Part shown: positions 5,938 through 43,778 of the stretch, in pieces
Position numbering within the stretch: the stretch's first letter is position 1
How the letters are laid out: the number at the start of each line of letters is the position of its first letter
Source: Hydrogenothermaceae bacterium
GTDB taxonomy: Bacteria; Aquificota; Aquificia; Aquificales; Hydrogenothermaceae
DNA length: 64,000 bases
Direction: 5' to 3'
Assembly: GCA_026418455.1 (NCBI GenBank)
Contig: JAOABH010000004.1
Coordinates: 434,001-498,000, forward strand
Notes under the pieces: generated by a model
Told to the model about the DNA's origin: nothing
The model's database searches: none
What the model saw: the letters and a program-made list of their open reading frames with translations, nothing else
Position numbers and translations under genes: made by a program

Positions 5938-7344
5938 ATGATGACAGTTATCCTTTCAGGTGGAAGTGGAACAAGGCTTTATCCATTTTCGAGGGAGAAG
6001 TTTCCGAAACAGTTTTTAAATTTTGGTGATAGAGAATCTCTTTTTCAGAAGACTGTAAAGAGAAATATAAAAATCAGTGATAGTATTCTGATAGTTGCAA
6101 ATAAGGAGTATAGATTTCATATATTACAACAGCTTAAAGATATAACTGAGAGTAAAAAATTTAATCTCATCCTCGAACCTGTTGGAAAGAATACTGCTCC
6201 TGCAATTGCTTTGGCTATTAAGTATGTCACAGAGAAACTAGGTTCGGATAAAGATGAAATTTTATTTATATCTCCTTCTGACCATATAATCTCACCGGAA
6301 GATGAGTTTATGAAGTATGTAAGTGAAGCTAAGGAAATTGCAAAGGAGGGATATATAGTTACATTCGGAGTAAACCCTACAAAACCTGAAACCGGATATG
6401 GATATATAGAGGTTGATACAGAAAATAGCATAAACGGAGCTTTTAAGGTAAAACAGTTTCATGAAAAACCAGATTTAGAAACTGCTAGAAACTATCTGAT
6501 GAATGGAAACTACTATTGGAATAGTGGAATGTTTACTTTCAGTATAAAAACCATAATTGATGAGTTTAAAGTACACTCTCCAGAGATTTACGACTTTATA
6601 AATAATAAATCATTTGAAGAAATGCTGGAGAGTTTTAATGATATGCCAAATATATCTATAGATTATGCTATTATGGAAAAAACAGATAAAACAGTAATGT
6701 TACCTCTATTTCTTAAATGGTCAGATGTAGGGTCTTGGGATAGTATCTACGATATTTTAGATAAAGATGAAAATCAAAATGTTAAAATAGGAAATGTAGT
6801 AGATATAGATACTGAAAACTCCTTAATACTTAGTAAAGATAGATTGGTTGCCACTGTTGGATTGGAAGATGTTATGATTTTAGAAACTGCTGATGTGGTT
6901 GTAGTAGCAAAGAGAGGAGAAGGTCAGAAAATAAAAGATTTAGTTTCAATTCTTAAAAAAAGGGATGACACAAAATATCTTACAGAGTTTCATACTACTG
7001 TTTACAGACCTTGGGGAAGCTATACAGAACTTGAGAAAGGAGAAAGATACAAAATAAAAAGGATAACAGTAAATCCTGGAGAAAGTTTAAGCTTACAGAT
7101 GCATCACCACAGAAGTGAACATTGGATAGTAGTAAAAGGGACTGCAAAAGTGATCATAGAATATAATGATGGTAATAAAGTAGAGAAATTTATTCATGAA
7201 AACGAAAGCATCTATGTTCCAAAATCCACAAAACATAGATTGGTAAATCCCGGTAAAATTCCACTTGAAATCATAGAGGTTCAGGTAGGTGAATACGTAG
7301 AAGAAGATGATATAATAAGGTTTGATGATATATACGGAAGATAA
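5938..7344 (+). CDS. manC: Mannose-1-phosphate guanylyltransferase / mannose-6-phosphate isomerase
   Basis: This bifunctional type II enzyme supplies GDP-mannose for surface glycans. The N-terminal nucleotidyltransferase begins VILSGGSGTRLYPFSREKFP, and EPVGKNTAPA and FHEKPD follow. The C-terminal cupin (from about residue 355) has VYRPWGSY and the metal-binding MHHHRSEHW of the isomerase half. The frame extends upstream to 5896, but AAGGAG at 5926-5931 puts the start at 5938 or 5941; 5938 is used here. It gives 468 residues, near the usual 470-480. A mannose- or GDP-mannose-derived residue in the glycan is the likely outcome. Confidence 0.92.
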   Translation: MMTVILSGGSGTRLYPFSREKFPKQFLNFGDRESLFQKTVKRNIKISDSILIVANKEYRFHILQQLKDITESKKFNLILEPVGKNTAPAIALAIKYVTEKLGSDKDEILFISPSDHIISPEDEFMKYVSEAKEIAKEGYIVTFGVNPTKPETGYGYIEVDTENSINGAFKVKQFHEKPDLETARNYLMNGNYYWNSGMFTFSIKTIIDEFKVHSPEIYDFINNKSFEEMLESFNDMPNISIDYAIMEKTDKTVMLPLFLKWSDVGSWDSIYDILDKDENQNVKIGNVVDIDTENSLILSKDRLVATVGLEDVMILETADVVVVAKRGEGQKIKDLVSILKKRDDTKYLTEFHTTVYRPWGSYTELEKGERYKIKRITVNPGESLSLQMHHHRSEHWIVVKGTAKVIIEYNDGNKVEKFIHENESIYVPKSTKHRLVNPGKIPLEIIEVQVGEYVEEDDIIRFDDIYGR

Positions 7345-39162: not shown

Positions 39163-40251
39163 ATGGCTTTACAAGGTGTAATAGATGCATTAAAAAGAAC
39201 AAATCTTCAAGAAATAGGTGTTAGCTTCTCTCTGGCAGACATAATGAAAGATTTAAGAATAGAAGGGAATAATGTTTATATAAAACTTTTTTCTCCTTCA
39301 GAAAAGTACTACGATTACCTAAGAGAGAAAATTTACAGCACATTAAAACCTCTCGGAGCTGAAAATATCGAGGTAGAGTTTAGTTCAGAGCCTCCGGTTC
39401 AAAGACAGACTCAGCCTCCACCACCACCTCCTCCTCAAAATCCATTTGAGAGTAGAAGAAGAATACCTAATATAGATAAAGTTATTCTTGTTGCATCTGG
39501 GAAAGGTGGAGTTGGAAAGTCAACAGTTGCAGTCAACTTGGCTTCTGCATTGAAAAAACTGGGACATAACGTAGGATATCTTGATGCCGATATGTATGGA
39601 CCAAGCGGTCCCACAATGTTCGGTGCAAAAGATAGGAAGGTTATGGCAAAAGAAACTCCGGAAGGCCAAAAAATAATAGCCCCGGAAGCTCACGGTGTAA
39701 AAATCATGTCTATCGGTTTTCTGCTTCCTTCTGAAGATACACCGGTTATATGGAGAGGTCCAGTTTTATTTAAAGCTTTAACGCAGTTCCTATTTGATAT
39801 TGATTGGGGAGATGAAAAGTTAGATTTCTTAGTTATAGATTTACCTCCAGGAACAGGAGATATTCAGATAACTCTTGGGCAGACAGCAGAAGTTGATGGT
39901 GCTATAATAGTAACAACACCTCAAGATGTAGCACTCATAGATGTCAAAAAAGGTATTCAGATGTTTAATGAAGTTCAGATACCAATAATTGGGATTGTTG
40001 AAAATATGAGTTACTTTGTATGTCCAGACAGTGGTAAAAAGTACGAAATATTTGGAAAAAGTAAGACAGAAGATATAGCAAAAATCTACGGAACTGAGCT
40101 TTTAGGACAGATACCTATTGAGCCGAAAGTAGCTGAATTTTCCGATTTAGGTATTCCTATAGTGTTTGCAAAAGAAGATTCTCAAACTGCACAAGAATTT
40201 ATAAATATAGCAAAAAAAGTGATAGAAAAACTTTCAAAGAAAGGAGAGTAA
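39163..40251 (+). CDS. mrp: Mrp/ApbC Fe-S cluster carrier ATPase
   Basis: This 362-residue P-loop protein has an N-terminal MIP18/DUF59 domain (about residues 1-85), a proline linker (QPPPPPPPQNPF), and the deviant Walker A SGKGGVGKSTVAVNLA. LDFLVIDLPPGTGDIQITLG is the Walker B region. Family members deliver Fe-S clusters to target proteins. The usual C-x-x-C that binds the bridging cluster is here FVCPDSGKKY: the second cysteine is Ser. It starts the Fe-S/sulfur-transfer operon behind AGGAGGT. Confidence 0.94.
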   Translation: MALQGVIDALKRTNLQEIGVSFSLADIMKDLRIEGNNVYIKLFSPSEKYYDYLREKIYSTLKPLGAENIEVEFSSEPPVQRQTQPPPPPPPQNPFESRRRIPNIDKVILVASGKGGVGKSTVAVNLASALKKLGHNVGYLDADMYGPSGPTMFGAKDRKVMAKETPEGQKIIAPEAHGVKIMSIGFLLPSEDTPVIWRGPVLFKALTQFLFDIDWGDEKLDFLVIDLPPGTGDIQITLGQTAEVDGAIIVTTPQDVALIDVKKGIQMFNEVQIPIIGIVENMSYFVCPDSGKKYEIFGKSKTEDIAKIYGTELLGQIPIEPKVAEFSDLGIPIVFAKEDSQTAQEFINIAKKVIEKLSKKGE

Positions 40252-40252
40252 G

Positions 40253-41467
40253 ATGCAAAAAAGAATATACGTAGACCATTTGGCTACAACGCCAGTTTGC
40301 GATGAAGCAATAGAGGCTATGATGCCTTACTTTAAGGAAAAATTTGGAAATCCTACATCTCTACATGAGATGGGAATAGAAGCTAAAAAGGCAATAAATA
40401 GAGCAAGAGAACAGGTAGCACAGCTTCTAAATGTAGGAAATCCAGAAGAGATAGTGTTTACAAGTGGGGCAATAGAGGCAAACAATCTTGCTATAAAAGG
40501 TTATGCAAAAGCTCCTGGAAGAAGAGGGAAACATATAGTTGTATCTTCTATAGAGCATCACTCGGTATTACATTCCTGCAAAACTTTAGAAAAAGAAGGT
40601 TTTGAGATAACAGAAGTTCACCCAGATGAATACGGTATCATAGACCCGCAAAAACTTGCAGACGCTGTAAGAGAAGATACTATACTTGTATCTGTTGGCT
40701 TTGCAAATAGAGAGATAGGAACTATTCAAGATATGCCTGCACTGGTTGCTGCTGTGAAAGAGAAAAATCCCAGAGTAGCTTTTCATTCAGATATAGCTGC
40801 TGCTGTTGGACACTACCCTGTTGATGTAGAAGGTTGGGGATTGGATATGGCTTCCTTTACCGGACATTACTTCTATGCTCCTAAAGGTGTAGGAGGACTT
40901 TATGTTAAGAAAGGTATTAGACTTAAGCCGTTGATAGAAGGTGGAATACAGGAAGGCGGAAGAAGAGCAGGAACTGAAAATGTACCGGGAATTGTAGGTA
41001 TGGGAGCAGCTGCAGAACTTGCTATAAAAGAGATGGATGATAGGGTAAATAGATTGAGATACCTTAGAGATAAGTTGAAAAAGGGTATAGAAGAGAGAAT
41101 ACCTCATATAAGATTTACTGGACATCCAGAAAAAAGACTTCCAAATCACCTTTCACTTATAGTTATGTATATAGAGGGAGAGGCTATGCTCCTTATGTTG
41201 AATATAAAGAAAACTTACACAGCTTCCGGATCTGCTTGTGTTTCATATGCTTTGAAACAGTCTCATGTCCTTGCAGCTATAGGAGTAGAAAAAGAAGCTT
41301 CTAACGGCTCTATAGTATTCTCCTTAGGAAGAGATAACACAGAAGAGGATATAGATTACATAATAGAGGAGTACCCAAAGGTTATCCAGAGACTTAGAGA
41401 TATATCTCCATTTAACCCAGAAAACTGGGAAGATTTTACTAAGAAAGCTTCAAAATTCAAAGGATGA
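40253..41467 (+). CDS. IscS/NifS-like cysteine desulfurase homologue lacking the PLP lysine
   Basis: This 404-residue protein is plainly of the IscS/NifS fold: DHLATTPVCDEAIEAMMPYF, GNPTSLHEMG, SSIEHHSV (His stacking on PLP), SDIAAAVG and GSACVSYALKQSHVLAAIG with the active-site Cys (about Cys329). The residue equal to Lys206 of E. coli IscS, which forms the Schiff base with PLP, is Tyr206 (TGHYFYAPKG), and Gln183 is Ala. Asp180 is kept. It therefore may not be a normal desulfurase. It lies between mrp and iscU. Possible roles are an inactive scaffold partner for IscU, or a sulfur carrier loaded by another enzyme. Confidence 0.85.
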   Translation: MQKRIYVDHLATTPVCDEAIEAMMPYFKEKFGNPTSLHEMGIEAKKAINRAREQVAQLLNVGNPEEIVFTSGAIEANNLAIKGYAKAPGRRGKHIVVSSIEHHSVLHSCKTLEKEGFEITEVHPDEYGIIDPQKLADAVREDTILVSVGFANREIGTIQDMPALVAAVKEKNPRVAFHSDIAAAVGHYPVDVEGWGLDMASFTGHYFYAPKGVGGLYVKKGIRLKPLIEGGIQEGGRRAGTENVPGIVGMGAAAELAIKEMDDRVNRLRYLRDKLKKGIEERIPHIRFTGHPEKRLPNHLSLIVMYIEGEAMLLMLNIKKTYTASGSACVSYALKQSHVLAAIGVEKEASNGSIVFSLGRDNTEEDIDYIIEEYPKVIQRLRDISPFNPENWEDFTKKASKFKG

Positions 41468-41556: not shown

Positions 41557-42018
41557 ATGTTTGAATATACAGAAAAAGTTATGGATCACTTTATGAATCC
41601 AAGGAATTTAGGTGAAATACCTAACCCAGATGGATATGGCCAGTGTGGTAATCCATCTTGTGGAGATGCTATGCTCTTTACTATAAAAGTTGACAAAGAG
41701 ACAGATATCATAACAGATGTTAAATTTAAAACATTCGGTTGTGGTTCTGCGATAGCTGTTTCCTCTGTTTTAACAGAGATGGTGAAAGGAAAACCTATAG
41801 ATTATGCTTTAAATCTCACATACAAAGAGATTTTTGAGGAACTCGGTGGACTTCCTGCACAAAAGATCCACTGCACTAACCTTGGATTAGAGACTCTACA
41901 CGTAGCAATAAAAGATTACCTGCTAAAACAAGGTAGAGTTGAAGAAGCAAATAAAATACCTGACTGTATAGAAGAAGAACACGAAGAAGAAGCAGTATCT
42001 TTAGAACATGTAGGATAA
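41557..42018 (+). CDS. iscU: Fe-S cluster scaffold IscU
   Basis: This 153-residue IscU-type scaffold keeps all three cluster cysteines, in NPSCGDAM, KTFGCGSAIAVSS and KIHCTNLGLETLHVAI, and the aspartate after the first. The C-terminus has an extra acidic and histidine-containing tail (EEEHEEEAVSLEHVG) beyond the usual end. AGGAGG precedes the ATG. Its stop overlaps the next start (TAATG). An intact scaffold next to a lysine-less IscS homologue is notable. Confidence 0.93.
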   Translation: MFEYTEKVMDHFMNPRNLGEIPNPDGYGQCGNPSCGDAMLFTIKVDKETDIITDVKFKTFGCGSAIAVSSVLTEMVKGKPIDYALNLTYKEIFEELGGLPAQKIHCTNLGLETLHVAIKDYLLKQGRVEEANKIPDCIEEEHEEEAVSLEHVG

Positions 42019-43058
42019 TGGAAAAGATAAAAGCGGTTGCACTATACTCAGGAGGGCTTGATAGCACGCTTGCTATCAAGCTTATCCAAAACCAAGGGGT
42101 AGATGTATTAGCTGTTCATTTTTATACTGGATTTTGTATAACAGAGACAAAGAGAAGAAGAGGAGAAAAACGGGAAGATGGTTCCCACTATATAAACCCC
42201 GCTCTAAAATATGCAGCCAAATATGGCTTTCCCATAGAGATAGTAGACATATCTGATGGATATATAGATGTAATAACAAATCCAAAGTATGGTTATGGAT
42301 CAAATATCAATCCCTGTATAGACTGTCGTATCTATATGTTTAAAAAAGCAAAAGATATAATGGAAGAGATAGGGGCTCAATTTGTAATAACCGGAGAGGT
42401 TTTAGGACAAAGACCTATGAGTCAGCATCTTCAAGCTATGAAAATCATAGAGAGAGATTCTGGTTTAGAGGGAGTTGTTTTAAAACCTCTCTCTGCAAAA
42501 AGGCTACCTCCTACAATTCCGGAGATTAAAGGTTGGGTAGATAGAGAGAAACTTGAAGGTATAGTTGGAAGAAGTAGAAAACGTCAAATTCAGCTGGCAA
42601 AGGAGCTGGGAATAGATGAGTTTGAGTCCCCAGGAGGAGGCTGCTGTTATCTTACAGATGAAAATTATGCCAGAAAGTATAAAGAAGTTATAAGAGTAGA
42701 GAATAAGATAACACAGGATGATTTGACACTTCTTACCGTAGGAAGACATTTTAGGCTACCTGCCGGAACAAAACTTATAGTTTCAAGAAATGAAGGAGAA
42801 AATAATTTTCTATACGGATTTAGAAATAGATATCACTTCTTTGAACCCATAGGGAAAGGTCCAGTAGCTTTGGCAAAACCGTTAAATTCCTATATTCTTC
42901 CGGAAGAAGACATTGAGATAGCTATAAACATAATCGCAAGATATTCCAAAACTGAAAATGGTAAAATAGATATACTATACAGTACTCCGGAAGGAGAAGA
43001 GATGGTAATGGAAGGTTATGAAATTGAAGATAATCTTATAGAAAACTGGAGGGTATAA
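42018..43058 (+). CDS. PP-loop ATPase, MnmA/ThiI-like tRNA sulfurtransferase
   Basis: This 346-residue protein has an N-terminal PP-loop ATP-pyrophosphatase (ALYSGGLDSTLAIKLI) that adenylates its substrate. NPCIDCRIYMFKKAKDI holds a C-x-x-C pair, and FESPGGGCCYLTDENYARKY a Cys-Cys pair, both suitable for a cluster or persulfide. Relatives with this layout are annotated as MnmA-like tRNA thiouridylases. Lying between iscU and a TusA-like gene, it probably takes sulfur from TusA or a cluster to thiolate tRNA. It lacks a THUMP domain, so it is not standard ThiI. Confidence 0.8.
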   Translation: MEKIKAVALYSGGLDSTLAIKLIQNQGVDVLAVHFYTGFCITETKRRRGEKREDGSHYINPALKYAAKYGFPIEIVDISDGYIDVITNPKYGYGSNINPCIDCRIYMFKKAKDIMEEIGAQFVITGEVLGQRPMSQHLQAMKIIERDSGLEGVVLKPLSAKRLPPTIPEIKGWVDREKLEGIVGRSRKRQIQLAKELGIDEFESPGGGCCYLTDENYARKYKEVIRVENKITQDDLTLLTVGRHFRLPAGTKLIVSRNEGENNFLYGFRNRYHFFEPIGKGPVALAKPLNSYILPEEDIEIAINIIARYSKTENGKIDILYSTPEGEEMVMEGYEIEDNLIENWRV

Positions 43059-43059
43059 G

Positions 43060-43293
43060 ATGGATATTAAAGCTGACATAATCCACGATGCAACTGGAAC
43101 ATACTGCCCGATACCTATAACAGAATTAGCAAAGGTGGCAAAGAAAGCAGAAAAAGGACAGATAATAGAGTTACTTGCCGATGATGAAGGAGCGATCCAA
43201 GACGTACCTGCTTGGTGTCAAGCTACGGGGAACAGTTTTCTTGGCTACAAAGAAGAAGACGGAGTACTTCATTTCTTCGTGAGGAAGGAATGA
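43060..43293 (+). CDS. TusA-like sulfur carrier
   Basis: This 77-residue protein is a TusA/SirA/YeeD fold carrier. DATGTYCPIPITELAKVAKK contains the single catalytic cysteine in the C-P-x-P motif, which carries a persulfide, and LADDEGAIQDVPAWCQATGN is the conserved second half. It follows the PP-loop gene after one base, so it is a natural donor to that enzyme. TusA proteins in sulfur oxidisers also take part in cytoplasmic sulfur oxidation. Confidence 0.92.
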   Translation: MDIKADIIHDATGTYCPIPITELAKVAKKAEKGQIIELLADDEGAIQDVPAWCQATGNSFLGYKEEDGVLHFFVRKE

Positions 43294-43511
43294 GAGTTAC
43301 AGTGGAAAGTAAAATTAGAGATATATTTGAGAACTACCCGAAAGTGAAGGAGATAGTTGACCCGTATTTAGAATTTTTTTACAAAGAAAGGTTAGACGGC
43401 ATACTGTTTAAGAGGTTAAGTCTATCTGGTTCCTTAAAACTTATAAACATCCCTCAGGAAGAGAGAGAAAATCTTATACAGGAAGTTAACAAGATTTTAA
43501 ATAAAGGCTAA
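43290..43511 (+). CDS. Small helical protein (possibly DUF1858-like)
   Basis: This 73-residue protein overlaps the TusA-like stop (ATGA) and has GAGGAAGG just upstream. RDIFENYPKVKEIVDPYLEF and the closing EERENLIQEVNKILNKG resemble the small helical DUF1858 or ScdA-N domains found with Fe-S and nitric-oxide-repair proteins, but the cysteines often seen there are missing. I regard the family link as weak; the gene itself is supported by tight operon packing. Confidence 0.7.
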   Translation: MRVTVESKIRDIFENYPKVKEIVDPYLEFFYKERLDGILFKRLSLSGSLKLINIPQEERENLIQEVNKILNKG

Positions 43512-43526: not shown

Positions 43527-43778
43527 ATGGTTATAAGTAAAGAACAAGAAATCGAAGAAATTTTAGAAAAGATAAGACCTGCATTAGTTCAAGATGCTGG
43601 GAATATAGAGCTTGTAAAAGTAGAAGATGGGGATGTGTATCTTAAACTCCACGGAACGTGTCAGCAGTGTCCCGTAGCAGATATTACTATGAAAGAGCTT
43701 GTTATATACACAATACAGGAAAGTCTTCCTTGGGTCAAAGCCGTTTATATAGGTGAAGAGAAGTATCAGATAGCATAA
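43527..43778 (+). CDS. nfu: Nfu-type Fe-S carrier (NifU C-terminal domain)
   Basis: This 83-residue protein is the NifU C-terminal domain alone. KVEDGDVYLKLHGTCQQCPV contains the C-x-x-C motif that binds a cluster at a dimer interface, and TMKELVIYTIQESLPWVKAV matches the rest of the domain. GAGGTG lies eight bases before its ATG. With IscU and Mrp it completes a scaffold-carrier set. Its stop overlaps aroE (TAATG). Confidence 0.93.
   Translation: MVISKEQEIEEILEKIRPALVQDAGNIELVKVEDGDVYLKLHGTCQQCPVADITMKELVIYTIQESLPWVKAVYIGEEKYQIA

Follow-up and report, generated by a model that had tools for sequence, protein, structure and literature searches.

The ISC system is usually taken to depend on IscS for its sulfur and to be unable to do without it. 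In the window (the whole stretch of 64,000 nucleotides from a Hydrogenothermaceae bacterium that was analysed here), an IscS-like gene within an Fe-S operon encodes a protein without the PLP-binding lysine, which raises the question of what such a protein does and from where the sulfur for the clusters is taken. The protein aligns over its full length with IscS and NifS proteins, and the gene and the positions of interest, as aligned with E. coli IscS, are as follows.

40253..41467, + strand: putative Lys-less IscS/NifS-type pseudo-desulfurase, 404 aa, ATG start, Pfam Aminotran_5 244.9 bits
40472..40474, + strand: Ile74 (ATA), at the position of Thr76, a ligand of the PLP phosphate
40709..40711, + strand: Arg153 (AGA), at the position of Asn155
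40799..40801, + strand: Ala183 (GCT), at the position of Gln183, the PLP O3' ligand
40868..40870, + strand: Tyr206 (TAC), at the position of the PLP lysine, Lys206
41237..41239, + strand: Cys329 (TGT), the sulfur-accepting Cys of the mobile loop, kept in SGSACVS (Cys328)
41315..41317, + strand: Val355 (GTA), at the position of Arg354, which binds the substrate carboxylate

Compared with E. coli K-12 IscS, five catalytic positions including the PLP lysine are replaced, and His104, Asp180, His205 and Thr243 are unchanged. The change from Lys (AAA/AAG) to Tyr (TAC), located in the motif TGHYFYAPKG (40859-40888), amounts to two base changes. Codons and alignment agree with the original prediction on Tyr at 206, Ala at 183, the kept Asp180 and an intact sulfur-accepting Cys at about 329. 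Judged from these residues the normal desulfurase site seems indeed to be lost, and three further changes (Ile74, Arg153 and Val355) had been overlooked in that prediction. The class-V aminotransferase fold is present, as seen from the Aminotran_5 match and a TM score of about 0.9 to IscS structures. It should be noted that the NCBIfam models discriminate weakly, since the protein (470.2 bits for NifS, 382.0 for IscS) and the canonical paralogue L001 both fall under the equivalog cut-offs of 530.75 (NifS) and 643.2 (IscS). Lys211 in the PKG motif was considered as a substitute PLP lysine; it is the only close lysine, yet it is also found in enzymes bearing Lys206 and probably does not serve this role.

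Further we surveyed 136 Aquificota genomes, taking proteins of at least 60% identity as orthologues and counting by hand. Orthologues of the Lys-less IscS were found in 97 of the 105 Hydrogenothermaceae and Aquificaceae genomes (38/41 and 59/64, respectively), and in none of the 31 other Aquificota. The first group was assigned to Hydrogenothermaceae from named GTDB records with identical sequences; the second, with Aquifex aeolicus VF5 and Hydrogenobacter thermophilus TK-6, we take to be the Aquificaceae. None of the 75 distinct orthologues has Lys206, and all carry Ile76, Arg155, Ala or Pro at 183 and Val354 while keeping Cys328 (E. coli numbering). Position 206 is Tyr in all 37 distinct sequences from Hydrogenothermaceae and Leu in all 38 from Aquificaceae. 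The check for conservation within a clade, proposed with the original prediction, is thereby passed. A Hydrogenothermaceae gene of this type (82% identity) was also seen on a contig of a MAG titled Flavobacteriales, which is probably mis-binned.

Comparing the window gene with those of its nearest relatives gave dN/dS values of 0.02-0.04; across every pair that yielded a value the range was 0.01-0.04 (dS was saturated in two further pairs), versus 0.11-0.16 for the canonical paralogue of the window genome. These low values together with the conserved change indicate that the gene is under strong constraint and is neither a relic nor a product of miscalled bases. The loss of the residue is the one thing that speaks for a pseudogene or a sequencing error, and we give this explanation practically no chance, as the change recurs in independent assemblies and in 75 distinct sequences with an intact reading frame. 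In particular, a miscall at 40868-40870, to which the original prediction had been held open, is excluded because every Hydrogenothermaceae orthologue has Tyr and every Aquificaceae orthologue has Leu.

As His104, Asp180, His205 and Thr243 are kept, some residual PLP binding would be possible, and by the account of PMC9978102 the K206A variant of E. coli IscS retains a very low rate. One might accordingly picture an enzyme that binds PLP without the lysine and processes cysteine slowly or in an altered manner. We consider this very improbable, since four more catalytic positions have changed jointly in 75/75 orthologues and several of them were restored in the Aquifex protein by the depositors of its structures, as described below.

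The surrounding genes in the window are the following.

39163..40251, + strand: Fe-S carrier ATPase of the ApbC/Mrp type, encoded immediately 5' of the Lys-less IscS gene
41557..42018, + strand: IscU/NifU_N scaffold, NifU_N 173.6 bits, three Cys and the Asp intact
42018..43058, + strand: PP-loop thiolation-type protein (ThiI/MnmA-like with NFACT-R_2), from profile matches, with PCIDC and GGGCC cysteines
43060..43293, + strand: TusA sulfur-transfer protein with CPIP motif, 74.5 bits, two genes past iscU in both families
43290..43511, + strand: small protein, unnamed, encoded in this operon, uncertain start, weakly matched by tblastn at the corresponding site of relatives
43527..43778, + strand: Fe-S carrier with the Nfu/NifU C-terminal domain, 77.5 bits

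IscU, TusA, ApbC and the Nfu domain confirm the Fe-S operon setting, and the IscU cysteines are intact as predicted, in SCGDAM, GCGSA and IHCTN. In the window and in many Hydrogenothermaceae genomes the Lys-less IscS gene is followed by iscU, the PP-loop protein gene, tusA, the small protein gene, the Nfu-domain gene and aroE; some Persephonella-type genomes have iscU about 2-3 kb away or outside the piece retrieved. Eight Aquificaceae genomes preserve iscU-PPloop-tusA-(small)-nfu as a block, at a site apart from the Lys-less IscS gene. The order IscU-PPloop-TusA-Nfu is common to both families, and the separate placement in Aquificaceae points to two modules, apbC with the Lys-less IscS gene and iscU-PPloop-tusA-nfu, brought together in the window. 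Throughout the surveyed loci, the neighbour of IscU that handles sulfur is TusA. The PP-loop protein, which lies between iscU and tusA wherever surveyed, is possibly a thiolase that depends on a cluster and uses sulfide.

The linkage to apbC deserves attention, as apbC is found directly upstream of the Lys-less IscS gene in every surveyed relative's locus of both families. With iscU elsewhere in the eight Aquificaceae genomes, ApbC could be the main partner, and the protein would then chiefly serve ApbC in handing over or holding clusters and have little to do with IscU. This seems improbable to us, as iscU lies directly 3' of the gene in many Hydrogenothermaceae, the window included, and as the two genes co-occur in the same genomes.

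The scaffold itself follows the two families closely. IscU (PF01592) was detected in 98 of the 105 Hydrogenothermaceae and Aquificaceae genomes and in 0/31 of the others in the phylum, whereas the SUFBD core (PF01458) was detected in 0/105 and 29/31, respectively. From this complementary distribution the two assembly systems appear mutually exclusive in Aquificota, and SUF was rejected as the actual Fe-S system of Hydrogenothermaceae and Aquificaceae. In the remaining groups (f3-f5) we observed a short SufB-like protein of about 315 aa that is SMS-like (e.g. G132:C2:406415-407095), with IscU absent.

We then come to the other possible donors of sulfur. The search for a second, normal desulfurase succeeded, in that the window genome encodes a canonical NifS/IscS of 376 aa with both lysine and cysteine (SGHKFNAPKG and SGSACSS, at G000:C8:172103-173212). 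An organism without any normal desulfurase is thereby ruled out, and the claim that its Fe-S assembly is not reliant on cysteine is weakened and, as worded, unsupported for this organism. Lys-type paralogues (33-46% identity, some fragmentary) are present in about 31/41 Hydrogenothermaceae and about 9/64 Aquificaceae genomes, and the 16 full-length ones retrieved besides that of the window genome all have the Lys and the Cys. In one near-complete genome the canonical paralogue seems to be in two pieces (G082:C1:1692834-1693963), which may reflect decay.

The class-V PLP proteins were classified in 13 near-complete genomes, namely 12 relatives and the window's own. A Lys-bearing cysteine desulfurase was found in three of these (G000, G001 and G009) and none was found in the other ten (G029, G030, G033, G036, G037, G039, G051, G053, G058 and G099). 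Besides the Lys-less IscS, these ten encode an AGXT-like aminotransferase and, in three of them, a Lys-less nif paralogue; some also have a protein of about 480-490 aa with a short class-V match, which was taken as a glycine dehydrogenase subunit. L-cysteine desulfidase (PF03313) gave no match in the 13 near-complete genomes and was thus rejected as a hidden cysteine route. Cysteine synthase was found in 13/13, which implies that these bacteria make cysteine from sulfide and so have sulfide as an intermediate.

These results bear on a possible relay of persulfide, in which TusA, a rhodanese or the canonical NifS/IscS loads Cys329 with sulfane sulfur that is passed on to IscU, the scaffold using no free sulfide. 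The invariant Cys loop fits such a relay, as do tusA two genes past iscU in both families, the 3-5 TusA-domain matches per genome and the canonical paralogue of the window genome. The latter could supply persulfide here, as could its counterparts, some of them fragmentary, in the Hydrogenothermaceae that have one; being missing from 10/13 near-complete genomes, it cannot be the general donor. On balance we regard the relay as rather unlikely, though worth keeping in mind.

The reading we favour, and hold to be reasonably probable, is that of a desulfurase-dead IscS kept as a partner of IscU assembly, which presents Cys329 while sulfur comes from sulfide directly or via TusA. The protein would be an IscS-family pseudoenzyme that has lost PLP-dependent cysteine desulfuration and would be retained as a dimeric partner in cluster assembly of the IscU type. 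Cys329 on the mobile loop would be offered to the IscU site, either to ligate the cluster, as its counterpart does in Archaeoglobus fulgidus, or to accept sulfur for a short time. The sulfur would be inorganic sulfide, arriving directly or through TusA, and not cysteine sulfur mobilised by this protein. We infer the inactivity of the protein, its binding to IscU and the source of sulfur from the patterns above. The original proposal that IscU is loaded from free sulfide or TusA is strengthened by the relatives without a Lys-bearing desulfurase and by the linkage of IscU and TusA in both families, and we suggest that Hydrogenothermaceae and Aquificaceae probably build their clusters from inorganic sulfide.

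Some nitrogen-fixing Aquificaceae carry a third and more degenerate paralogue within the nif cluster, next to NifV, NifB, NifH and NifD. Four such genes were located.

L206:5821-7014, - strand: Lys-less nif-cluster NifS, Aquificaceae, Cys in SPC/TPC kept
L207:5857-6924, - strand: Lys-less nif-cluster NifS, Aquificaceae, Cys in SPC/TPC kept
L208:5665-6771, - strand: Lys-less nif-cluster NifS, Aquificaceae, Cys in SPC/TPC kept
L209:2190-3353, + strand: Lys-less nif-cluster NifS, Aquificaceae, Cys in SPC/TPC kept

At the position of the lysine these proteins read GHYFYAPHYSG (G031), DGPSLMAPQGVG (G036) and DGPFLLAPQGIS (G051). Further, we speculate that the ancestor of Hydrogenothermaceae and Aquificaceae dropped desulfurase-driven Fe-S assembly and kept the ISC-type scaffold. 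Both the IscS for housekeeping and the NifS of the nif cluster would then have become pseudoenzymes, sulfide would enter through IscU-PPloop-TusA-Nfu even for nitrogenase, and the canonical NifS of some genomes would belong to a distinct lineage with other roles. This wider scenario is quite possible but tentative, and may well turn out wrong.

Two families of thermophilic sulfur bacteria that encode IscU with a strongly conserved, site-less IscS, many members being without another Lys-bearing desulfurase, offer a natural setting for studying in isolation what IscS does apart from catalysis. They suggest that sulfide can sustain ISC as it does SMS. Throughout Hydrogenothermaceae and Aquificaceae, the label cysteine desulfurase given by automatic annotation is misleading.

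Among known systems the nearest in pattern is IscS of A. fulgidus, which, in PMC7585200 (citing PMID 22511353, 25447670 and 23160436), is described as having no lysine and no desulfurase activity, its Cys serving as ligand of a [2Fe-2S] cluster on IscU. Like the window protein, A. fulgidus IscS (4eb5, 4eb7 and 4hvk; D199K in 4r5f) is Lys-less, keeps the Cys and is changed at the positions of Gln183 and Arg354; unlike it, A. fulgidus IscS has Asp at the lysine position and retains the equivalents of Thr76 and Asn155. The window protein thus matches the A. fulgidus type in having no lysine, a kept Cys loop and IscU encoded too, and comparison of its predicted model with the IscS-IscU structures of A. 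fulgidus gave TM scores of 0.89 (query) and 0.95 (target). In a tree without the long nif paralogues the Aquificota proteins fall on one side of a 100/100 branch. The best tree places A. fulgidus IscS apart from the Aquificota clade, with archaeal, Lys-bearing sequences from Methanomicrobia and Thermoplasmata (99/92), and a union of A. fulgidus IscS with the Aquificota clade was not rejected (AU p 0.188). As far as the sequences allow, it seems likely that the lysine was lost independently in A. fulgidus and in Aquificota.

Other cases are more distant. IscS1 of Methanosarcina acetivorans is Lys-less and is suggested, in PMC7585200, to act like A. fulgidus IscS; the likeness is taken from that description, and the protein differs from ours in being archaeal and one of several IscS copies. 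E. coli IscS and bacterial NifS share the fold and the Cys loop and differ in the five catalytic positions. The SMS system (SmsCB) of Methanocaldococcus assembles Fe-S clusters without cysteine desulfurase and with sulfide as source (PMC12192291), its scaffold being SufBC-like, whereas that of Hydrogenothermaceae and Aquificaceae, which have no SUFBD, is IscU. In anaerobic E. coli lacking IscS, H2S feeds IscU, according to PMC13015791. Outside these systems we observed, in Rokuibacteriota (L067), a Lys-less IscS with SCTAHLIYGPKG, which groups with E. coli IscS at 100/100, and roughly 5 kb away one that has the lysine (ORFs at the start of the locus and at about 5983). An apparent Lys-less case with Val at the lysine position and the Cys loop GSACAN was seen in Endomicrobiellum (L056, about 6001-7164).

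The best solved relatives of the window protein are the PDB entries of the Aquifex IscS orthologue (9wfy, 9wfe, 9wfb, 9wf8, 9wew, 9wer and 9wep). Our structure-library comparison (library to April 2026) did not have these entries among its matches, and literature searches on the Aquifex protein and on PLP-less or Lys-less desulfurases found no paper on the Aquifex protein. Residues 9-404 of 9wfy are identical to the G001 orthologue over 396 residues; this protein has 68% identity to that of the window and a like pocket, with Leu for Tyr206 and Pro for Ala183. It was deposited as 'cysteine desulfurase', whereas we read the window protein as desulfurase-dead. The other six entries are engineered, and the sequences of 9wfe, 9wfb, 9wf8, 9wew and 9wep display progressive reversions toward an active site, 9wep with nine (I16A, I80T, G155M, R159N, A188V, P189Q, T209S, L212K and V361R). 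These stepwise reversions are consistent with a natural Aquifex protein without a working site, and they imply that the dead site was already recognised and rebuilt by the depositors. A Lys-less IscS is hence not unprecedented, with A. fulgidus published and the Aquifex orthologue in the PDB, and the lineage-wide pattern is clear.
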